From Oligosphaeraceae bacterium (GTDB lineage: Bacteria; Verrucomicrobiota; Lentisphaeria; Oligosphaerales; Oligosphaeraceae): DNA of 46,385 bases. Both the position numbers and the translations under genes were made by a program. This document shows, one piece after another, positions 10,349 through 46,385 of this stretch. A model generated the notes under the pieces. That model was given only the letters and a program-made list of their open reading frames with translations. It searched no databases and was not told where the DNA came from. Positions within the stretch are counted from its first letter, which is position 1. The number at the start of each line of letters is the position of its first letter. Location: the NCBI GenBank assembly GCA_012799725.1, contig JAAZKR010000046.1, forward strand, positions 1 to 46,385, read 5' to 3'.

Positions 10349-10575
10349 AGACCGACACCATAAGCGTTAAGTTGTTTTCATTTCTTGATCAATCTTCGTA
10401 GAACACGAGTTCTAGCACAAATGGGAGGAGGGAAATGCTCCTAGGCAACGGATTGTGTTCATGGAGAAACAACCTCGAAAAGGTGGCGCCATGAGTAACA
10501 CCAGGTGAAGCAAAGCGGAATCTGGGACATGGCATCCCCACTACCATCAAAGCCTCGGAGAGGCGGCACATAAAG

Positions 10576-30813: not shown

Positions 30814-33018
30814 CTATTCCTTCCAGTGGGTGTTAATCGTTTTTTGTATTGCAAGCGCGGATCCGTCCGGTCGCTCGATCCTTCCGGGAATACTGTCCGG
30901 CAGTTCTGCCTTGAATTGGATTTTCCCGCTGACACGCTGCCATTCTATATTTATTTTTCCATAAATCGTATCATACGATGCGGTCATATTACTCAGAGAA
31001 GCGATCGGACGCGGCTTCAAGACGACTTCGCGAAAGCCCGGACGCGAGAAATCGGGCTCGATCCCGGCAGCATACTGCATCATCCAGGCAAAAAGATCGC
31101 CATACATGATATGATTGTGCGAATATTTTCCTGCAAAGTCTTCGCATAGAGTGGTTTCGCCGTCACGGACCCATTTGCACCAGCCGGGATATTGATCTTG
31201 CGTGAAGACCTTGAATCCGTCATCAGCATATCCATGTTCCGCAAGAACACGGGGGACAAACTTTGCGCCAACAATCCCGAAATCGGCAGTATGAGCATCT
31301 TTCCGGACGCTGTCAAGGAGCATTCTAACAGCGTTAGCGGCCTCTTTTCCGTTGCAGAATCCAAACTGCACAGCCAACGCCAGCGCAGTTTTTTCATTGT
31401 TGGCATAGGAACCGTTTCCGTTGGAAAATTCTCGGTTGAACGCGTGAAAAACTTGTTCCGCCAGTTCTGAATAACGTTTGACATCTTCTTCATAACCAAA
31501 GAGTCTTGCGGCCTCGACAAGCATCTTCAGCTCGTGATAATACCATGCCGTAGTTGGCAGTTCCGGAACGACTGCCCGTTCTGCAAACGGGTGCATCCAG
31601 TCACCAAGACCGAACCTGACAAGGTGTCCCTTCGCCAGGCTTTTCGTAAAAGCAAGTGCACGCTTGAAAGGCTCGTAGTTTTCGCGCATGGGAACCGCAT
31701 CACCGCGGTAGATATAAATGTTGCGCGGTATCCCGAACAGGATGGTATCGAACATGGTGCCGCTGCCCCAGTTGTAGCCCCAGCCAGAGGTCGGAGCCAT
31801 ACCGGGGAGCTGTCCATTCGGGCGCATGCAATCACGAATTGTCCCGAGCCATTCCCGATACGTTTCCTTGCCATCAAAGAAAAAAAGGCCAGTATCTGAA
31901 GCAAGCTGTGCATCGTTCATCCAGCCATTCTTTTCACGATGTGGACAATCGGTCGGGATCCCGACAAAATTATTGAGATAGGACCAGTAAGTGCATTGTT
32001 TCAGTGCATTCATATCGGGGTCAGAACAGGTGAAATCGCCGACTTGTCTGACATCGCTGTGAATTGCTTGTGCGGTCATTGAAACGAGTTCCGCGTCGCC
32101 GCTGATCTCCACCGCCACATAACGAAATCCGTGATAGGTGAAATGCGAGTGCCAGACTTCCGTTGCCCCTCCTTTGAGCGTGTACCTTTCCGTCTGAAAT
32201 TCGCCGCTTTTGATAAATCGGGCAATATTATCGAGACAAAGTGTTCCATCCGGGTTCAAAACATCACCGTACTGAATTTTGATGCAGCTTCCGGCTTTTC
32301 CTCGGACTTCGATCTCGGCACGTCCGGCGAGATTCTGCCCAGCATCCCAAATGCCGCATTCGAGTTTGTGCATGGGAAATGTGCGGGTAACACGGCATGG
32401 CGCGGAAGTCTGTTCATATAGAATCCCCCCCGGTCCAGCAGTAATAGTGGCATCTTGCCATGAGGAATCATCAAAGCCGTTCTGATCCCAGCCGGGCATT
32501 TCGAGCCGGGCATCATAATATTCCCCGTTACGAAGTGAATCGAATACAATAGGACCATTGGTCGTGACTTTCCAGGTATGATCACTGGCAAGGATCGTTT
32601 GCCCGTCCGCAATAAGTTCCGCAATCATTTTTGGATAATCGCGCCAAGTAGCCTTATCGAAATGCCATACTTCGGCTGTTTGGCAGTTATAGAGGCCATT
32701 CCCAAGCGTAACGCCAATCGTATTGCGCCCAGAAACAAGATGGCCGCTAACATCGTGCACGAGATATCCTGCATGAGCATCGTACTTTGCCTGTGCTGGC
32801 GCCAGCTCGAAGTCACTGACACGGCGACCATTAATCCTGACTTCATGAAAACCAAGTCCGCAAATATAAAGTTTACAGTCTTTAGGCTCCGCTATTTCAA
32901 ATTCTTTTCGGAAATATGGAGCAGGAAAGTTTTTTGCGTTCCAGTCTACCATGGTTGCGCCAAATGATATCCAGTACGCATGCCAAACTCTTGTATCTGA
33001 AAACGACATGACACACAA
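30814..33018 (-). CDS. Alpha-L-rhamnosidase (GH78-like)
   Basis: APYFRKEFEIAEPKDCKLYICGLGFHEVRINGRRVSDFELAPAQAKYD; GIPTDCPHREKNGWMNDAQLASDTGLFFFDG; YSHNHIMYGDLFAWMMQYAAGI. Confidence 0.87.
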   Translation of the reverse strand: MCVMSFSDTRVWHAYWISFGATMVDWNAKNFPAPYFRKEFEIAEPKDCKLYICGLGFHEVRINGRRVSDFELAPAQAKYDAHAGYLVHDVSGHLVSGRNTIGVTLGNGLYNCQTAEVWHFDKATWRDYPKMIAELIADGQTILASDHTWKVTTNGPIVFDSLRNGEYYDARLEMPGWDQNGFDDSSWQDATITAGPGGILYEQTSAPCRVTRTFPMHKLECGIWDAGQNLAGRAEIEVRGKAGSCIKIQYGDVLNPDGTLCLDNIARFIKSGEFQTERYTLKGGATEVWHSHFTYHGFRYVAVEISGDAELVSMTAQAIHSDVRQVGDFTCSDPDMNALKQCTYWSYLNNFVGIPTDCPHREKNGWMNDAQLASDTGLFFFDGKETYREWLGTIRDCMRPNGQLPGMAPTSGWGYNWGSGTMFDTILFGIPRNIYIYRGDAVPMRENYEPFKRALAFTKSLAKGHLVRFGLGDWMHPFAERAVVPELPTTAWYYHELKMLVEAARLFGYEEDVKRYSELAEQVFHAFNREFSNGNGSYANNEKTALALAVQFGFCNGKEAANAVRMLLDSVRKDAHTADFGIVGAKFVPRVLAEHGYADDGFKVFTQDQYPGWCKWVRDGETTLCEDFAGKYSHNHIMYGDLFAWMMQYAAGIEPDFSRPGFREVVLKPRPIASLSNMTASYDTIYGKINIEWQRVSGKIQFKAELPDSIPGRIERPDGSALAIQKTINTHWKE

Positions 33019-33405: not shown

Positions 33406-34428
33406 TCAAACCTTATGACAGCAGGATTCGCCAAGGATCAATGAACCTTCGACAAATATCTCGTGGAGTGGCGGTGATTCAACAGGAATGTTGTTGATGA
33501 TGACACGTACCGCCTCACGGGCGATTTCTGCAGGATTATTGTCCATCACGGAGATCGACGGCTGCATTGCCTGACTTCCTTTCCACGACTCCATGCCAAT
33601 AATAGAAACGTCCTCCGGGACGCGAAGACCACGGCTGTTCAGCAGGCGGATCGCCCACAAAGTGGCATTGCCATTACCGATTATTAGCGCATCTGGTCGC
33701 ATCGGAAGCACGTCGTCAAGAAGCTCGGTCATCAATTCCAGGGTATCGCATTCGCCTATGTCACCGCAGTAGATCTGCGCCTCGTCAAAGGGGATACCAT
33801 GTGCCAGATGAGCGTCGCGGAAAGCACGGGCACGCGCCATGGCATCCGGGGTGCGATAGTTGGATTTAACGTAAATGATTTTCCGCCGGTTCAACGAAAA
33901 AAGATAATCCATCGCTTTGCGAAAAGTTCCATGATAATCAGGGGAGACAAAAGAGAACTTCTCGTCAGTTGCCGGTTGACTAATGAAAAGTGGGTTTTTG
34001 AATGGCTTGAAAAGCGGTGGGACCTTCTCACTGAATTCGTAATAATGCGCCATGCAAATTACGCTCTGGATGTCATATCCAAGAAAATCATCCACATAGC
34101 TTTTGATAGCGTCAATGCTGTCATGCATCAGACCGACCTGTAGCCTGTAGCCTGCTTCGCGAGTGAGCTGCTCGATACAGCTTAAAATATCACTGTAAAG
34201 CCTGCAACACTGACTGTCAACGATGAGTCCGATGATGTCCTGCTTTCTACTCGCCAGGCGTTGCGCCATACGATTGGGGCGGTAGCCTAGTTGTTCAGCA
34301 ATCTTTTGAATGTGCAGCGATTTTTTTTCGCTGATCTTGGTAGTTTTCCCACCACCACCGTGCAGCGCCTTAGACGCCGCAGATCGTGAAACCCCAGCAG
34401 CCTTTGCTACATCAGAAAGTGTTATCAT
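33406..34428 (-). CDS. LacI-family transcriptional regulator
   Basis: ORF 33406..34545, likely start MITLSDVAKAAGVSRSAASKALHGGGGKTTKISEKKSLHIQKIAEQLGYRPNRMAQRLASRKQDIIGLIVD at 34428; RPDALIIGNGNATLWAIRLLNSRGLRVPEDVSIIGMESW effector domain. Confidence 0.92.
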   Translation of the reverse strand: MITLSDVAKAAGVSRSAASKALHGGGGKTTKISEKKSLHIQKIAEQLGYRPNRMAQRLASRKQDIIGLIVDSQCCRLYSDILSCIEQLTREAGYRLQVGLMHDSIDAIKSYVDDFLGYDIQSVICMAHYYEFSEKVPPLFKPFKNPLFISQPATDEKFSFVSPDYHGTFRKAMDYLFSLNRRKIIYVKSNYRTPDAMARARAFRDAHLAHGIPFDEAQIYCGDIGECDTLELMTELLDDVLPMRPDALIIGNGNATLWAIRLLNSRGLRVPEDVSIIGMESWKGSQAMQPSISVMDNNPAEIAREAVRVIINNIPVESPPLHEIFVEGSLILGESCCHKV

Positions 34429-34569
34429 ATTGTTATCCTCGCTACGGTTCTTGTTTAAGATAACTGCATTTTGGAATATTGTCACGCTTAACAAATGAGT
34501 CATAAGGGAAAAAAACTTTTCCCCACCCTCCGCCTCCATTGACAAAAAAAGAAGAAAGCATTACATTTT

Positions 34570-34585
34570 AATGTACCGCGACATT
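34570..34585. promoter_or_regulatory. Candidate LacI-family operator between divergent LacI and glycosidase-like genes
   Basis: AATGTACCGCGACATT; differs at 2 of 16 positions from the perfect palindrome AATGTACCGGTACATT at 39201-39216. Confidence 0.65.
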
Positions 34586-34818
34586 ATGGTTGTGACAATT
34601 TTTTTTCGAATATACAATTACAGTCGCCCACATATTCGCGGAACATCTTTTGAGAAGTTAAAAAAGTCTCCATCTCTTCATTTGGGTTTTACATAAAAAC
34701 GAGCGGGCGATAGCACTATAGTTTGAAAAAAGTGGCAATTTCTGCTTCAAGTGGGTAAAAATCTGAATCTGCGGCAAACTTCAAATACCAACCTTTTTCC
34801 CGACGAGGATAGAACGAA

Positions 34819-36363
34819 ATGAAACTTTATGCGACGGTGGATTTTGCTGATGAGATTATTGCATCGATCTGGACTCCGAAACGTTTATTGAAATATTTTA
34901 AATTGATCCGCTCCAAAGGGATCACACGGCTTTACTGGATCGACCAGCAGGAAATCATGGAGCGCTGCGGCAATGACGAAATCAATGCTAACATGGTCGC
35001 AACAATTCAGAATTTTTCCGGACGCATCCACGAAACGGCAGTGCAGCTGGCACACGAAGCTGGACTCGAAATTTTCGTTCTGATCAAACCCTACGAGTGT
35101 GGGCTGCTCGCTCCGGCGTTGTCAGATGATGCCATAAAGCGTCCTCATCTTCCGGTTGCCGGTGGCATCTGCGACCGCTTCACCAGTTTTGCAAAGAAGC
35201 ACCCTGAAGCGATGCTTCAGCGCATACCGGTTCCAATGCATGGTGAAGCGGCAGTTTTGACACTCCTCTTTTCGGCGCCGCTTGTCAAAAGCGGATTGGT
35301 ACGGCTGTGGGCGTCAGAAACGAATTGCAATTATCAATTAATCGAGGAAAAAAGCGTTCCAGCAGGGTTTCAGGAGATCAGTTTTACTCGCCCAACAGGC
35401 AAAAACTTTTTTGTTTTCCAGAGTGCTGACCTTGCCAGCGGTAATACCTATGAAAAGATCATTTCCATCAGCGATACCGAGGAACGTCCGGTGCCATTCT
35501 CGCTGGGAATTCAGCCCAAGCGGCGCTACGTACCGATCAAGTCCCACTTGGAACACCGCCCCAAGCCCTGCGATGACGGTGGATTTAAGAAGATGGGGAT
35601 GTTGTTCGATTATTTTCCGGGTATCCCGTCGGGACTTTATACCAGCAATCTGCCCCCAAACTGGTACTTTGATTTTGCCAATGCCACTGAAAACGCATTG
35701 GGTGTGTCCTTAGAGATCAATGACCGCATTGTCGGTTTCCCGGATCCGACACATCCGGCGCATTACGAAAGCATTCGCCAATGGGTTGAGCGTGATTTGG
35801 CCATGGGCTTTGACGGCCTGGATGTACGGGTTTCCAGTCATAGTTCGCCAATCTTCTGGCGCGATTATGGCTTTGGCTCCGAGGTGCGGCGCACCCGCGG
35901 GGAGGCTCACAACCAATTGCTGCGTATGATTTCCAAACTAGTGCGCGCTGCAGGAAAGGTGATGAGTGTTCACATCGAAGATTTTATGTATGACTCAACG
36001 CCGGAACTGCCCTCTCCTATGGAATTTTTCTGGGATTATCACCGCTGGATCAACGAACGACTGATGGACGAAGTAACTGCCAAGATGATCTTTACCGATG
36101 GTCTTTTGGCGGCAAACTTTGCGCTGGCGTGCGAGTGCCGTGCCGCCGGGATCAAAGTCAATACTTGCCCATTTTTGCACAATGTTTCGCAGCCGCTGGT
36201 TTTTGCATCGTGGTCTGCGCAGGCCGGAATTGAGGCGTTTAACATCTATGAAACAGCGACGGTCTGGCAAGCTGATGCGGAGGGTGACGGCATTGCCGAG
36301 ATTAACCCGGCGATGTTGAAACAGCTCTGCCGTATTACGGAAATCGAGGTGCCTGAATGTTAA
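34819..36363 (+). CDS. Hypothetical protein, probable TIM-barrel glycosidase-like
   Basis: 514-aa ORF: IRQWVERDLAMGFDGLDVRVSSHSSPIFWRDYGFGSEVRR...FEDFMYD-like barrel-strand pattern; overlaps downstream GH78-like gene by 7 nt. Confidence 0.65.
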   Translation: MKLYATVDFADEIIASIWTPKRLLKYFKLIRSKGITRLYWIDQQEIMERCGNDEINANMVATIQNFSGRIHETAVQLAHEAGLEIFVLIKPYECGLLAPALSDDAIKRPHLPVAGGICDRFTSFAKKHPEAMLQRIPVPMHGEAAVLTLLFSAPLVKSGLVRLWASETNCNYQLIEEKSVPAGFQEISFTRPTGKNFFVFQSADLASGNTYEKIISISDTEERPVPFSLGIQPKRRYVPIKSHLEHRPKPCDDGGFKKMGMLFDYFPGIPSGLYTSNLPPNWYFDFANATENALGVSLEINDRIVGFPDPTHPAHYESIRQWVERDLAMGFDGLDVRVSSHSSPIFWRDYGFGSEVRRTRGEAHNQLLRMISKLVRAAGKVMSVHIEDFMYDSTPELPSPMEFFWDYHRWINERLMDEVTAKMIFTDGLLAANFALACECRAAGIKVNTCPFLHNVSQPLVFASWSAQAGIEAFNIYETATVWQADAEGDGIAEINPAMLKQLCRITEIEVPEC

Positions 36364-38687
36364 ACAAATCGCAATGGATCAGTTGCCCCGGACTTCCCGA
36401 AAAGGGATGTGTGGTTTTCTATGCCCGGAAGCGCTGGCAACTTGCAGCGCTTCCCGCATCGGCGATGCTGAAAATCAGTGCCGATAGCCGTTTCCGGCTC
36501 TGGATCAACGATATATTCGTAGGTTCAGGACCGGTGCGCGGCTCGACCGTATTAAATTTTCATGAAGTGTTTGAGATCGCGCCGCTGCTTCGCATAGGCG
36601 AAAATGAGTTCTTTGCCGAGGTTTGGTCACAGCGCGAAGAGAATTTTGTCTTTCATTCATTAGAAGCTGCATTGTGGGCAGAAGTGCGGGGAATGTTATA
36701 CAGCGCTCCCGGCGATGGTTGGGAGGTAAAACCAGCGCGCGGTTGGCGCAGCGATGTGCCCCATTACACCTTGCAAAGCGGCTTCATGGAGTGGTACGAC
36801 TTTCGCGAAGAGACGCAACCTGAGTCATGGTGCCCTGCCATAACAGCAAGAAACCACCAGCTCCTCGCGAAAAAACTTTTACCGAACCCTTTGCCCGCTT
36901 TCCCAGAATCATCACTACGTCCGGTGGAGGCGCTTTCGTGGTACGCAGTAGGCCCGCTGGACATTTTTGACGCGCATCGCATCCCCGACGTTCTATCCGA
37001 AGAACCACACATGGCGCTTTCTCCCGAACGGATCGTAAATCCCAGTGCACTTTTCAGCGGCAAAGGTGCTGTTATATTACGACCCGGCGCACCCGGAGAG
37101 GGTTTGGGCGTAATCCTCGATTTTGCCTCAGAAGTCTCCGGCCGTCTGGAAATCGAACTGGATGCACCTGCAGGAACCACGCTCCAGATTGCTTACGGCG
37201 AAGCTTTAAGCGGCGGTCGCATCGCCACCAAATTTTCCATGGATTACCATTTCACCGATGCATTTATCCTCAAAGATGGACGTAATCTTGTCACTACTGC
37301 CTTTTCTGAACGCGGCTTCCGAATGGTCGCGATTTCAATCCGAAACTTTGATCGACCGATTCGACTGGAGCGTGTAAGCGGCATAAACCGCCGCTATCCT
37401 TTTATGAAACGGGGCTCTTTTTTTTCCAGCGATTACCGCTTGAACCGTATCTTTGAGGTGTGTACGGAAACCTTGAGCGCCTGCGCTTCGGACGTTTTCA
37501 TGGATTGCCCATGGCGGGAACGCGCATTCTGGGTCAATGATTTGCTGGTCAACAACCTGGCAACACTGCACTGTTTCGGTGCGTCGGAACTGCACCGACA
37601 CTGCCTTGAACTCGCGTTTTCGCAACCGCACCCGTCAGAATTGCTTTCGGCGGTGGTACCGATGCCAAAGATGGCAGGACAGTGCGATTTTATCTTCGCC
37701 CCGACCAATCTTTATATGATGCTGATTCTTAAAGATTACTGGCACTTTTCCGGCGATGATGCAACAGTACGGCGCTATCTGCCTGACATTGAACGCATAT
37801 TCAATGCGATATGGCGTTTGGCGGACTCTGACGGCATCCTCCGCACCTCGGGAGTCACCGCCGAATGGAACTTCTATGACTGGAGTTTCGAGGAAAACCA
37901 TCTTTGCTGCAACAACGCCGGCGAGTCGATGCTCAGTTCGCTCTACCTTATCGCCTCCAGTACCTTTGAAGAAGTGGCCACAGCACTCGGGCATGACTTT
38001 GACCGCAGCGAATTGCAGCGGCGGCGTGCCTTGACCGCTCGGAACTTTGAAACGCGTTTCTTTTCAGAGGAAAGCGGACTAATCGAAGACGAACTGCGCT
38101 CGACTGACGATCTAACACCAGTTAAACGTTCGACTCAACTGGCGCACGCATTATGGCTCCTCACCGGCGAGGCATCACCCCGCGTTGCCGAAATCTGCCG
38201 CAAAGCTATTTCCGATGAATCGCTCCTAAAGCCTGATTACTATTTGCACTACTTCTGGTTCCAGGCCGCCGCATCAGCAGGAAAGGCACAAGAAGCGTTA
38301 GATCGCATCCGGCGCTACTGGGGACGCTGTATTGATACTGGCTCGCCTACTTTATATGAGGCCGGCATCCACACCTTCGGCAAACAGGCAATGGATGGTT
38401 CCGGCAGCCTCTGTCATGCTTTCGGTACTATTCCGGTGGCGTTCCTACACGAAGTGATCCTAGGCGTCAGAGCACTTGCACCGGGTTTTCGTGAATTTTC
38501 TTTTGCACCTAATCGATTCGACCTTGACTTCGCCGAAGGGCGCATTCCGGTTCCCGTTCCAAGTGGCTGCATTCGCGTGCGGCTCACTGTGGAATACACG
38601 GAGTTGACGGTCCCAGCTGGCTGCACAGCAGTGCTGCCAAACGGTGTGCGGCTCAATGCCGGATTTCATAAATTGAAAGCAACCTAA
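36357..38687 (+). CDS. Alpha-L-rhamnosidase-like protein (GH78-like, (alpha/alpha)6 barrel)
   Basis: KISADSRFRLWINDIFVGSGPVRG; SACASDVFMDCPWRERAFWVNDLLVNNLATLHCFG; HTFGKQAMDGSGSLCHAFGTIPVAFLHEVILGVRALAPGFREFSFAP. Confidence 0.85.
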   Translation: MLNKSQWISCPGLPEKGCVVFYARKRWQLAALPASAMLKISADSRFRLWINDIFVGSGPVRGSTVLNFHEVFEIAPLLRIGENEFFAEVWSQREENFVFHSLEAALWAEVRGMLYSAPGDGWEVKPARGWRSDVPHYTLQSGFMEWYDFREETQPESWCPAITARNHQLLAKKLLPNPLPAFPESSLRPVEALSWYAVGPLDIFDAHRIPDVLSEEPHMALSPERIVNPSALFSGKGAVILRPGAPGEGLGVILDFASEVSGRLEIELDAPAGTTLQIAYGEALSGGRIATKFSMDYHFTDAFILKDGRNLVTTAFSERGFRMVAISIRNFDRPIRLERVSGINRRYPFMKRGSFFSSDYRLNRIFEVCTETLSACASDVFMDCPWRERAFWVNDLLVNNLATLHCFGASELHRHCLELAFSQPHPSELLSAVVPMPKMAGQCDFIFAPTNLYMMLILKDYWHFSGDDATVRRYLPDIERIFNAIWRLADSDGILRTSGVTAEWNFYDWSFEENHLCCNNAGESMLSSLYLIASSTFEEVATALGHDFDRSELQRRRALTARNFETRFFSEESGLIEDELRSTDDLTPVKRSTQLAHALWLLTGEASPRVAEICRKAISDESLLKPDYYLHYFWFQAAASAGKAQEALDRIRRYWGRCIDTGSPTLYEAGIHTFGKQAMDGSGSLCHAFGTIPVAFLHEVILGVRALAPGFREFSFAPNRFDLDFAEGRIPVPVPSGCIRVRLTVEYTELTVPAGCTAVLPNGVRLNAGFHKLKAT

Positions 38688-38897
38688 AAAACTGGATCTA
38701 CGACGGTAGATGTAAAGCCTTTTTAACCTGGCACGGGCTGACGCCTACAACCTATTTTTAACCACGACCACTTGAAATGGCAGGAATTTTTTATGGTTGC
38801 TCCGACGAAGGTTGTTGCCTCGACGGATGAAATGGCACTTGAATTTGCGGTCTAATTTGTTGGTTTCTCCGACGGATCGGTCAGATCTGCATAATAC

Positions 38898-38978
38898 TTT
38901 GCGCCGTAGTCGCTTAACCCTAGACTTTAGCCTAGAATGAAGACCCCACCCAAAGACAGTGCCTTGTAAAGGTACTAC
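38898..38978 (+). repeat. Dispersed intergenic repeat family A, full-length copy (plus orientation)
   Basis: ctttgcgccgtagtcgcttaaccctagactttagcctagaatgaagaccccacccaaagacagtgccttgtaaaggtactac. Confidence 0.75.
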
Positions 38979-39200
38979 AATCAGTCGGAAAAGTCAGATA
39001 AATGATTATGTGCCAATGACTTGAAGATCACTTTTTAAAAATCTTCCACAAAAACAAGAAGTCGAGTGATAGTAACATAAGGTATCATGCAGAAACAGGA
39101 CAATTCCAGAAAATCACAGCTATTCCTGATCCTGAAAATACGCACTATAAAAACTTTTTCCAGCAGGACTTGATTTTTCGGTTTAATAGCTTACATTCAT

Positions 39201-39216
39201 AATGTACCGGTACATT
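39201..39216. promoter_or_regulatory. Candidate LacI-family operator upstream of prepilin/GH123-like cluster
   Basis: AATGTACCGGTACATT, perfect 16-bp palindrome with central CCGG; near-identical to 34570-34585. Confidence 0.65.
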
Positions 39217-39462: not shown

Positions 39463-40173
39463 ATGAAACGTGGATTGTTCACCTTGATTGAATTGCTTGT
39501 TGTCATTGCGATCATCGCGATACTCGCCTCCATGCTGCTGCCGGCCTTGAACAAGGCACGTACGAAAGCACGTAAGATCAACTGTCTATCCAACATCAAA
39601 GCGCTGACCCTTGCCTCGATCATGTATACCGATGACAACGACGGATATACGGCTGCTGTTTTCTGCGACAGACCTGCTGGCCAGCGCTGGTGTGTTGAGT
39701 TATACAGCAAATACATCATGAAGGATACTAGGGTTTTCCTCTGTCCGTCTAAACCACAGTCCAAGTGGGATAAAAGCGATTTCTGGACAACTGGCAACAT
39801 CGGCTACGCAGTTCCTCGCGGTATTGTGGGCTGGAACCCTAGCGGAAACAACGGTGAAGGTCAGAAATGCACACAGATTGGCAGGCTGAAGAGCACGACT
39901 GCAATTATTGGCGAGGGTCTTATCCAGGCTGAAGGCGGCAATGAATACTCCATCTGGAACGCCGGTGAATATGGTGGTATGGCGCCCACGGTTATGATCC
40001 TCACTGGCGCATCAACCTCCTATCCTATTGATGATACACGCCATGAAGGCGGTGCTAACTTCGGTTTCGTTGACGGTTCCGCAGCATTCCTGGCAACAGC
40101 CCAAATCAAGACCGGGCACCAGACATACTTCAGACCTATATGCTTCGGCGGCATACATCGCGAAATCTGGTAA
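39463..40173 (+). CDS. Prepilin-type (DUF1559/H-X9-DG-like) protein
   Basis: ORF 39418..40173, probable start [63 protein letters not shown]-term [17 protein letters not shown]. Confidence 0.87.
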
Positions 40174-40196
40174 AAATTCAAAGGGGAAACAACTCA

Positions 40197-43009
40197 TGCA
40201 GGTATTTAGAATCCATGTGTTCGTCCATGCCATACTATTCAGCTTGGCAGCGATAGCCGCGCATCCTTTTGCAATTCTCGACAAAGAAGCTGATGGCATT
40301 GCAAAGATACGCCCTGTGTTTGTCATGTCCGAGGCTTTTTCGCAATATAGGCCAGACGAGCAAGCAGAGTTGCGTGGATTCTGGGCAACTGCTGTTGACC
40401 TGAATATGAATTTGTCGAAGGAATTCAACTGGGCTGCACCAACGCTGAATAACACCATGCAGCTGCTGACTGCCCAAGGTGATTATACATGCGCGGCATT
40501 CTCCGTGTTTTTTGCCAAAGAAGCTCCCAAACTGGAAATTATTTCCAGTGAACTGAAAAGTCGAAATCATGTCATTCCAGTTTCTGAAACCTGTGTGTTA
40601 CAGATTTCGCCGGCAAAATCTGTTCCACGTTTTCCCTACTGCAATCTGATGTGGGAACCAGTGACAAACGATATGAAACCTGGCGATCAGCTCAATCTGG
40701 TCTATATGGTCAATGTTTCAGCGGACACCCCCGCAGGTCTCTACAAAAGTCAGGTTACACTTGTTGCAAATGGTCAACAAATGGCTCTGAATGTGGAATT
40801 ACGTGTGGCGGATTTTACTCTGCCGGAGTGCGGTAATTTCGGATTCTTTCTGAATGGAAATCTCTATCAGCCAAGAGACGGTTACAACTGCAACCAAAAA
40901 GCCTTTGTTAAGGAAAATCTCAAGCTGTATTTCAATTATTTTAAGACACGCCGTTTCAATTCTATTTCAATTTTCGACAATCTTCCAGACTTGCGCTATA
41001 TAGATGGTAAAGTCACAGGCAATTTCAGCGACATGTCAGCGATTGCAGCCGCCATGAACGCCAGCGGTTTGAAAGGCAAGCTACTTATTGACCTACGTGA
41101 TATCGGCTATTGGTGCAACGCAGTTGCCATTAAATTGGAAGAGTTGGGCAACAAGGTGACGGCAGGTGACCTAGGCGTTACTATGGTACAACGTAAGCCC
41201 AGTATAGAGCCATATCCGGAAAAAGCAAAAGAACTATATGCTGAATCAATCCGCCTGCTTATTGCCCAGGCAAAAGCAGAACATTGGCCGGATATTAGAA
41301 TCTTTGCAGATGAAGAGCTGGGCAACCAATTCCCGCTAAAAATCAATAACTATGAGTGCTTTATGCCCGTTATCATGAAAGAGTTTGCTGAATATGCCGC
41401 TGTCATTGACAACGGCATTGGCTGGGGACGGAAAACAGCAACCGAATACGCCGCACGAGACCAAGTTCGTCACAGGCAGTATAACAGCTGGACAGAAGAA
41501 GCCTTGGCAAATGCTGAGGCGGAAAATGCTGAGGTCTGGACGTTCAATTACGCAACCTCGAGGCTGGCAAACGGCTTCCTGCAAAGTCGCATGAACTCAA
41601 AAGGACATCACCAATGGGCGGATCTTTGGGATGCGAGCAATTTCCAGTGGCAGTTTACCAGGCTTTCGCCCAAAGGAGTAGTCACCTCACTAAATGCCGA
41701 ATGGATGCATGAAGGCTGTGTTGACTACGCGGCCTGTGAATATCTCAAGACCTTGATCGCAGAATGCGAAGCGGCTGGAAACACTACTCTGGCGGCAGAA
41801 GGCAAAGCAGTCCTTGCTGAGATTTTCCGTGATCTGTCAGTTAACCACACAACAGCCCAGAACTATGGGCAGATGATGCCGAATTCGGCGCTGTCTGCCT
41901 GGCGGTGGCTGGTTTTCCAGGCAATTGAAAAACTGCAGGATGGCCATTTCACGGCCGCCACAGTTGGAGATGGCAAGCCGTCCATGCGCCTTGAACCGAC
42001 AAAACAGATTACAGTTCCCAACAATGACTATATTCTGAAAGTGAAGAATATGGATGGAATATTTCAGGAAACCGCAGAAACACCCGAAGACTTCTGGAGT
42101 GAATTCATCGGCCCGTTCTCACATCTGACAGAATACGAAGCGCAGCTCCGTGCATTCTGCAGCACCCCCGAGGAATTCAAGGCAAAGAATGCCCCCAGCT
42201 ATACGATGGCACGCGTGGCCAGCATTCCGGCTGGTCTGGCGATCTACACCTATGCAAATCACGTTCAGCCAAAGGATCCCTACCGTTATGAGCGCCAAGA
42301 TGACGATGGCGATATGTGGCAGGATGACTGCATCGAATTTTTCTTCGGTTTCCCCAACGGCAAGCACGCACATCTGATGTATAACTCAGCAGGCAAAAAG
42401 ACATTTTTCTATGGAGGCCAAGTTATTCCTGCCGAAGACAAAATCAAGAGTTTCATCAAGTCACCGATCAATGTGACTGGTGGAACAATCAATAAAATGC
42501 TTATTCCGTGGAGCTATTTTGGTCTGACTTTGCAACCGCTCCCCGGAACAGTCTGGGAATTCAATGTGGGACGTGAAATGCACACTTTCCGTACCCCGAC
42601 TGAGGCTCCGATGAGCTGGGCGCGCCTGGCAACAAGCTTCCACGAGCAAGATAAGTGGGGAAGACTGGTCTTTACTGGCAGCGATGGCGTCTCAAACGTA
42701 AAGGCAGAGCCATCACTGATGGTTGAACCCAGCCTGGCCAAGATGGTTACTGTTGGTTTGCCGTTCCCTTTCAATATGGAAATCCGAGCCGATGTGCAGA
42801 TACTGAGCCTAGATGTCACCCTCGTCCATGAGGACGGCACGGAAGTCGCCCTGGAGACAATCAAGGCACCGGTTGGCAGCTCACGGCTTGTCATTGAAAC
42901 TGCGGGCCTGAAACTAGGCAGCTGGACGCTTTATCCTCGAATCTCCCAAAAGCCAGTTGCTCCATCCAATGTAGTCTCATTCAGAGTTGTGGATTCACCT
43001 TGGAAATAA
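40197..43009 (+). CDS. Exported glycoside hydrolase-like protein (GH123/DUF4091-like) with C-terminal CBM9-like domain
   Basis: ORF 40028..43009; likely start MQVFRIHVFVHAILFSLAAIAAHP at 40197 (signal peptide, 23 nt after prepilin stop). VSADTPAGLYKSQVTLVANGQQMALNVELRVADFTLPE linker typical of DUF4091/GH123; DDGDMWQDDCIEFFFGFPNGKHAHLMYNSAGK typical of CBM9-like. Confidence 0.7.
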
Positions 43010-44284: not shown

Positions 44285-44902
44285 TCATAAGAAAAACAGT
44301 TCCTTTAACCAGTTGATGAAGTTTTTCGCGGCGTTGGCTTTCAGGTATTGTGCTTTGATAGCCGTGCCGAAAGGTTTACCCGGCTCTTCCTGCCAAGCGA
44401 GCCATGTGTGGATCAATGCCTTGGACTTGTCCTTGTCCGCAAACAGCTGGTGCCCTTCAGGAATGTTGTCGATGCTATGTTCAGCATGGTCGAGCAATTC
44501 ATTCGGTGTTGGCACTAGTAAACGCAGAAAGTCTTCCAGAATGCCGTTGCTTCGATTGTCGGGCATCAGCCATATGCCGACCTTGGGTAGCAATGCATCT
44601 GCTGGCGGGGGAAGAATAGTTCCCAGAGGTGCAGGAGTCTTCGGAGCAGTATATCCAGCGGCGACCAAGTGGTCACGCAGGGAGTCCCAACGCGCCTGCA
44701 TGTTTGTGTCAGCATCTACAAGAATGCCGAGAGCCTTGACATCGCTGCCTTTGAGCTGGACAGGTAAACTTTCGAGCAACTCGGAAATGCCGCCAAGGTT
44801 CTTGATCTCGTCGATTCGCCCAAGATTATGATAATCGCAGAGATGCTTCACGACATGTTCGTCGTCGGTGCCTTCCACCATGAGTATATTTTTACTTTCC
44901 AT
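44285..44902 (-). CDS. TOPRIM-like protein (DUF3226-type), partner of AAA ATPase
   Basis: NILMVEGTDDEHVVKHLCDYH (EG..DE TOPRIM Glu) and KALGILVDADTNMQARWDSLRDHL (DxD); WLMPDNRSNGILEDFLRLLVP; 2 nt downstream of the ATPase gene. Confidence 0.75.
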   Translation of the reverse strand: MESKNILMVEGTDDEHVVKHLCDYHNLGRIDEIKNLGGISELLESLPVQLKGSDVKALGILVDADTNMQARWDSLRDHLVAAGYTAPKTPAPLGTILPPPADALLPKVGIWLMPDNRSNGILEDFLRLLVPTPNELLDHAEHSIDNIPEGHQLFADKDKSKALIHTWLAWQEEPGKPFGTAIKAQYLKANAAKNFINWLKELFFL

Positions 44903-44904
44903 GG

Positions 44905-46032
44905 TTAGCGCACCTCAATTCCATCGCGTGTTGCCACGGCGAGTTCATCTTTCTTGAAGAGCGTCGGAATGACGGCGTCGCCTTTGCGGGATAGTCGTAC
45001 AAGGGCAACGTCTTCAGTGGTTTCAGCAGCCGTTTTCTGGAACGCCTCGATAGCATCCCAACTGTGAGACGTGGCGAAGACTTGTACGTTCAAGTTTTTA
45101 GCCAGGCGAAAAATGGCTCGCCAAACATCCGGTTGCACAGTATGGTGCATCCCATTCTCGAACTCGTCGATAAGTAGTAGGCCATCTTTGGCGTTCACCA
45201 GCGAAAGTGCGATGCTGAAGAGCCGGTTCAGGCCGTCCCCATATGAGCGAAGAGGGAGAGGACGCTGATAGTTTTTTGACCGAACAATGGCAGCCCGAGA
45301 CCGGCGGGGGTCGTTTCCACCGACCATCGAGACGGCAAATATACTTGGATCAATGATCTGGAGCGCATGAACGACCTCTTTTTCGCTGTCGGAAAGCGCG
45401 ATGTTGTCCCAAAGTGCACCAAGATTAGCGGTGCTTTCGCCGCCATAGGGGCTGACATAGACGCACTGCAGCAGAGGTTTTTCGCCGAACATAGAACGGT
45501 ATGATCTATTACTACTATAAGGGAAACGCTGGAAGAAGGATACCAGCGAAATTTCACGCGTTCCATTTGGTGACTTGATCACCAGCGCAGGCCAATTTTC
45601 TCCTAACAGTTTGGGGAGCTTCAGGTCGATTTGGTCGGATTGGGTCTGTGACCTCGTTAGCCACTCGAGCTGCAAAGTCAACCCAAAACCATGTTGCTTG
45701 CCTTTCGCTTTTATCTGGATTGGTTTGAAATCCTTGATAGATTGCGGAAAACCGGCAAAGAGACTGGCAAGCCAAAGCAGCGTATCAGCTTCGTTCAGAC
45801 GCAGGGAATCCGCCATATTGTCGACATTTTCTTCCCGATAGCTCAGAATACTGGAGATGACGGACGGGTCTGCATTTGAGCTTAAGATGCGAAGCGCCTC
45901 TAATATGGACGACTTACCTGTATTATTACGGCCAGTGATCAGGTTGACTCGCCCCAATCCCTTGACAGAGAAGTCCCGCAACGCTCGGAATCCTGAGACC
46001 GTAAGTTCAGTGATGCTTGGTTTCTGTTTCAT
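44905..46032 (-). CDS. AAA-family (AAA_15/21, OLD-like) ATPase
   Basis: ORF 44905..46044; Walker A GRNNTGKSSILEAL, Walker B GLLLIDEFENGMHH, H-loop VFATSHSWDAIEAF. Confidence 0.88.
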   Translation of the reverse strand: MKQKPSITELTVSGFRALRDFSVKGLGRVNLITGRNNTGKSSILEALRILSSNADPSVISSILSYREENVDNMADSLRLNEADTLLWLASLFAGFPQSIKDFKPIQIKAKGKQHGFGLTLQLEWLTRSQTQSDQIDLKLPKLLGENWPALVIKSPNGTREISLVSFFQRFPYSSNRSYRSMFGEKPLLQCVYVSPYGGESTANLGALWDNIALSDSEKEVVHALQIIDPSIFAVSMVGGNDPRRSRAAIVRSKNYQRPLPLRSYGDGLNRLFSIALSLVNAKDGLLLIDEFENGMHHTVQPDVWRAIFRLAKNLNVQVFATSHSWDAIEAFQKTAAETTEDVALVRLSRKGDAVIPTLFKKDELAVATRDGIEVR

Positions 46033-46385
46033 TGCAGCTCTCAATTAGTGTGTTGCATTATATACCACTTCTGGGTGACCGTGGCGCAGCTGACATGCAC
46101 GTGCCGAATCCTCCATCGCGTCGCTCCCCATGGCAGTATGGTGTAAAATATAGCATCTGATGCAACGACTGCAATTGTTTGTTAATCGTCCGGCGATATG
46201 TGATATGGTACACCCCAAAGTTAACTTTTCCGTGGTTAAACAACTTTTTGTCCAGGGCTAATAATGTGAAAAAACAGAAAAACTGGTGTTGTACCAATCG
46301 GAAATTTCTTGATCCGCAGAATGTCAGACCCATACTATAACTCTGAATTTCACCTGCTTCACCGTGCATATCACAGGGAGTAGGA

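Follow-up and report, generated by a model that had tools for sequence, protein, structure and literature searches.

The window, a 46,385-nucleotide stretch of DNA from an Oligosphaeraceae bacterium, very probably contains an autoregulated local repressor of the LacI family that acts on its own gene, on a glycosidase-like/GH78 operon and on a prepilin/GH123-like operon through two near-identical palindromes. The first-pass annotation had proposed one regulator for both clusters and for itself, a proposal supported by the rarity of the palindromes, their intergenic position, their conservation beside orthologs and the linkage of the genes. The physical binding, the repression and the inducing sugar are steps that we infer. 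A dimer of the regulator would bind AATGTnnCGnnACATT across the start of each promoter and block transcription of the GH-like/GH78 operon (34819-38687), the prepilin/GH123-like operon (39463-43009) and lacI itself. A sugar from the target glycan, which is probably rhamnose- and/or N-acetylhexosamine-containing, would bind the regulator and relieve the repression.

The regulator, its neighbors and the two palindromes

The regulator is a protein of 340 aa (33409-34428, minus strand, ATG start at 34428) with the domains expected of the LacI family, an N-terminal LacI HTH (residues 3-52) and a periplasmic-binding-protein-like, sugar-binding-like effector domain (residues 65-336). Its Pfam matches are PF00356 (2.5e-10, above the cut-off), PF13377 (5.6e-23) and PF00532 (3.1e-6). 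On the plus strand, a putative TIM-barrel glycosidase-like protein of 514 aa (34819-36363) matches no Pfam family and has a low-confidence TIM-barrel-like model. Its gene is overlapped by 7 nt by that of a GH78-type alpha-L-rhamnosidase-like protein of 776 aa (36357-38687, plus strand), for which the original family assignment is correct, as the protein contains the Bac_rhamnosid catalytic domain (PF17389, 9.1e-25; PF05592, 1.1e-8). Homologs of the 34819 protein are present in three members of the class at 45-54%, and the operator motif is not found at these loci; hence, the gene either joined the regulon in this lineage or lost the regulon elsewhere.

The second cluster consists of a prepilin-like protein of the N_methyl/DUF1559 type (236 aa; 39463-40173, plus strand; PF07963 and PF07596) and a large secreted GH123-like protein of ~937 aa counted from MQVFRIHV (40196-43009, plus strand), which has homologs in the related genomes G196 and G054. 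The GH123 assignment survives only in part: ~150 residues match GH123 structures (5l7v/5l7r, about 4e-7), while the match is partial, confined to profile positions 88-234, and the protein belongs to no Pfam family. The structure model of the same protein (pLDDT 47) is too weak for fold assignment. Enzyme identity by structure was rejected due to the low confidence of the models (pLDDT 58 and 47), and a single fold search returned generic TIM-barrel matches only.

Two further loci of the window flank these genes. Downstream of lacI and 387 bp away, the same strand encodes a second full-length GH78 rhamnosidase (30814-33018, minus strand), and no operator copy precedes its gene. A possible defence module, an OLD-nuclease/TOPRIM-like pair, consists of an AAA_15/AAA_21 ATPase gene and the DUF3226 gene that follows it (44285-46044, minus strand).

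The first predicted operator, AATGTACCGCGACATT (34570-34585), is located in the intergenic region between the divergent lacI gene and GH operon, and the second, AATGTACCGGTACATT (39201-39216), upstream of the prepilin/GH123-like operon; neither is assigned a strand. Re-reading of the sequence confirms the positions and the details that had been described: the second site is a perfect 16-bp palindrome, the two differ at 2 of 16 positions, and both are intergenic at the two clusters named. The first site lengthens into the imperfect palindrome TAATGTACCGCGACATTA. LacI operators are even palindromes of 16-22 bp with a central CG, a form that AATGTnnCGnnACATT fits, perfectly at 39201 and imperfectly at 34570. 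The form claimed agrees with a survey of the family, in which 1251 of 1303 regulators have even palindromes, 1173 have a central CG and 72% are autoregulated (Ravcheev et al. 2014, PMC4052901).

The motif is rare. With up to three mismatches, the window holds two matches compared with 0.13 in its dinucleotide shuffles, and no third match inside the window accompanies the sites at 34570 and 39201. In the 3.25-Mb host genome (G000), no match other than these two has two mismatches or fewer, a level at which a reversed-pattern control yields none; at three mismatches, 16 further matches appear compared with 13 for the control, and 15 of the 16 are within reading frames. Exact matches to a degenerate form, AATGTNNCGNNACATT, occur in the host genome at the same two places only, a count partly dependent on the sites from which the form was derived. 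The host genome is a metagenome-assembled genome of 314 contigs, 92.7% complete, and further sites may be missing from it. The genome scan suggested with the original claim thus reveals a rare motif with two copies, both at CAZyme clusters, rather than an abundant and unenriched one.

The sole intergenic candidate for a further regulon member in the host genome is the remaining three-mismatch match, TATGTACCGGTAAATA (L216, G000:C299, 3425-3440), ~180 bp upstream of another prepilin gene. Its AATGT/ACATT arms are broken, and it is possibly a weak third site or the operator of a related regulator. An RNA element or common 5' leader was also considered for the two sites and rejected, as the leaders have nothing in common beyond 9-mers; Rfam gives no match in the window.

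Conservation of the predicted operator across the regulator clade

Orthologs of the regulator are found among relatives in G196 (64% identical), G010 (55%), G059 (52%) and G054 (48%); G010 belongs to the same family as the host and G059 to another family of the class. The host is a relative of the Victivallales, its nearest named hit being JAFZWH010000133.1, a MAG of that group from the rumen, which corresponds to G010. Phylogenetic footprinting, the further check that had been suggested, recovers the AATGTnnCGnnACATT element in the lacI upstream region of three of these orthologs. In G059, a perfect AATGTACCGGTACATT is present 22 bp upstream of the lacI start and CATGTACCGGTACATT, with one mismatch, 103 bp upstream, and these are the only sites with 0-1 mismatches in that genome. 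The G196 ortholog, found after the 16-mer had been fixed, carries AATGTATCGCGACATT and AATGTCGCGGTACATG at 47-71 bp from its start, and the G010 lacI upstream region carries AATGTTACGAAACATT. The chance of an exact site per 250-bp upstream region is ≤1e-4 in first-order Markov simulations for G010, G059 and G196.

The arrangement of sites is conserved along with the sites themselves. The degenerate form AATGTNNCGNNACATT was built from host, G059, G010 and G196 sites with the G010 prepilin site left out, and G010 (3.2 Mb) contains exactly two matches to it, 11.7 kb apart on one contig. One is located where lacI and an oxidoreductase gene diverge; the second precedes, by 72 bp, the prepilin gene at the head of a distant CAZyme cluster. 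This is the layout of the window, where the spacing of the two sites is 4.6 kb. Exact matches to AATGTNNCGNNACATT occur in only 30 of 198 genomes of the class, and a contig with two of them is present only in the host and G010.

The four regulators that come with the motif group in one clade (support 98/97), and the DNA-binding domain of each contains a GGGGKTTK loop. The G054 regulator is placed just outside the clade, with the recognition helix LMTVSQ as opposed to R/K/Q-S-(A/T)-(V/A)-S-K, and its genome has no AATGTNNCGNNACATT site. A different CG-centred palindrome, ATATAACGTTATAA, is present upstream of the G054 lacI (L064, about 10419-10434) and is a candidate for a changed operator that matches the changed helix. 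Within the clade, operator position 6 is A or C for regulators whose first recognition position is R or K, and T in all four half-sites for the G010 regulator, which has Q. Four proteins give no more than a hint that the recognition residue and operator position 6 covary.

Promoter geometry and alternative readings

The GH operon has a putative sigma-70-type promoter (TTGACA-17-TACATT, 34539-34567, plus strand) that agrees with the consensus at 10 of 12 positions, and the putative lacI promoter (TTGTCA-17-TACATT, 34570-34598, minus strand) agrees at 9 of 12, its -10 being formed by the outer half of the operator. The putative promoter of the prepilin operon (TTGATT-16-TACATT, 39170-39197, approximate to 1-2 bases, plus strand) is weak; at 8 of 12 it is alone not above chance and is backed by the geometry common to the sites. 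The operator begins 2 nt past the putative -10 at site 1, 3 nt at site 2, 4 nt at the G010 prepilin site and 1 nt in G196, and it lies inside the -35/-10 spacer in G059 and G196. Promoter-like matches are about as frequent in the region as in shuffles; the recurrent geometry carries weight, and the individual promoter calls are weak evidence. Positions on or just past the -10 or in the spacer are those of a repressor. Autoregulation by operator position is clear at the strong G196 and G059 promoters, and in the window the putative -10 of lacI falls within the operator.

In G196 (L174, 9900-9939), a perfect TTGACA-17-TATAAT has one operator in its spacer and a second 1 nt past its -10, which has the appearance of a compact double-operator design. 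The TACATT found 2-3 nt upstream of both window operators was considered as a third conserved half-site and rejected, as it is not kept in G010 or G196; it is more likely a -10 box. Most LacI-family sites, >75% of those known, are 30-140 bp upstream of the start, which is a frequency rule (PMC4052901). The sites of G059 (22-103 bp), G196 (47-71 bp) and G010 (72 bp) compare with 142 bp to the lacI start (34428) and 233 bp to the divergent GH gene (34819) for site 1 of the window, and 246 bp to the likely prepilin start (39463) for site 2. The distances of 233 and 246 bp require long 5' leaders. The sites at 34570 and 39201 may also be joined by DNA looping; the regulator is shorter than Escherichia coli LacI.

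The sites could be real operators of this protein and serve an activator or a global catabolite regulator similar to CcpA. CcpA (1rzr, 1zvv) is the closest solved relative by profile (3e-38) and has the same domain architecture, and CcpA-like proteins are able to activate from upstream sites. This reading is improbable given that there are only two sites in the host genome, unlike a global regulon such as the cre network, and that the operators occupy repressor positions: the window and G010 have them on or just past the -10, G059 in the spacer and G196 in both places. The HTH loop of the window regulator (GGGGKTTK) is four residues longer than that of CcpA.

Less probable still is that the adjoining LacI is a bystander and that the sites serve a different palindrome-binding regulator, either a LacI paralog or a protein of the GntR type, whose gene lies elsewhere. 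The host genome contains 15 other LacI-family genes, and binding by the adjoining protein is predicted, but in each of four genomes, which represent four genera, the element is found upstream of the lacI gene of this clade, and an exact copy is absent from the other LacI loci examined. The operators of E. coli GntR/IdnR have a ATGTTACC-type half-site; in this form they resemble the window sites in the half-site, the ATGT core and the central CCGG/CG, while the gene content of the loci differs. Chance resemblance of two short palindromes has next to no probability: 16-bp palindromes with few mismatches do arise by chance, as the 13 control matches illustrate, but genome-wide counts and ortholog conservation rule this origin out, since matches with 0-2 mismatches are unique to this locus in the host genome and perfect or exact matches recur in orthologous lacI promoters at the simulated odds given above for each.

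A local, autoregulated repressor resembles the local LacI sugar regulons already described (RegPrecise; PMC4052901) in its even 16-bp palindrome, central CG, autoregulation, small number of operons and adjoining CAZyme genes. The mechanism is not new, as its features are those of known local LacI regulons. The window differs in that its target includes a prepilin-like protein and its operators are farther from the starts. The literature searched contains no bacterial-regulator paper with the operator core TGTACCGGTACA and none that joins Lentisphaer*, LacI and prepilin; the words Lentisphaer* and Verrucomicrobi* are absent from the text of PMC4052901.

Pairing of LacI regulators with prepilin-like genes

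The gene order of relatives bears out independently the proposed link of the regulator to the prepilin/GH123-like cluster. In G196, lacI, a prepilin gene (49% over 222 aa with that of the window) and a homolog of the 40196-43009 gene (45.5% over 947 aa) are consecutive and form one operon behind the operator. The same order is found in G054, where the large gene is more divergent (28% over 811 aa), and G059 has lacI, prepilin and a CBM4_9 protein. Given this order, the layout of the window is most simply read as a split or rearranged operon. The ancestral state was probably that of G196, with lacI, prepilin and GH123-like gene forming a single operon downstream of one operator region; in the lineage of the window, the GH/GH78 genes separate lacI from the prepilin operon, which has an operator copy of its own. 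We infer this direction of rearrangement.

The pairing extends beyond this locus. Of the 16 LacI-family genes in the host genome, six (contigs C15, C19, C124, C229, C230 and C306) are followed immediately, on their own strand, by a prepilin-like gene, with 1.1-1.4 kb from the HTH to the prepilin motif; this far exceeds what a density of ~80 prepilin genes in 3.25 Mb would give. The arrangement also recurs in members of the class. This pairing is a more unusual aspect than the regulon itself. A tentative generalization, perhaps one chance in three of being right in our estimation, is that the glycan-use unit of Victivallales comprises a LacI regulator, a cognate prepilin and a CAZyme under one operator, with the prepilin co-induced, substrate-specific and engaged in polysaccharide capture or secretion. 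Such a pilin-like role would be functionally comparable to that of SusCD in Bacteroidetes loci.

A LacI-family regulator of Victivallales, a lineage that PMC4052901, the main comparative study of the family consulted, does not mention, thereby has a predicted operator and regulon that are backed by evidence. They tie a prepilin-like class with ~80 copies in the host genome to carbohydrate-enzyme genes through shared predicted regulation, and with this tie the function of these prepilins becomes testable.
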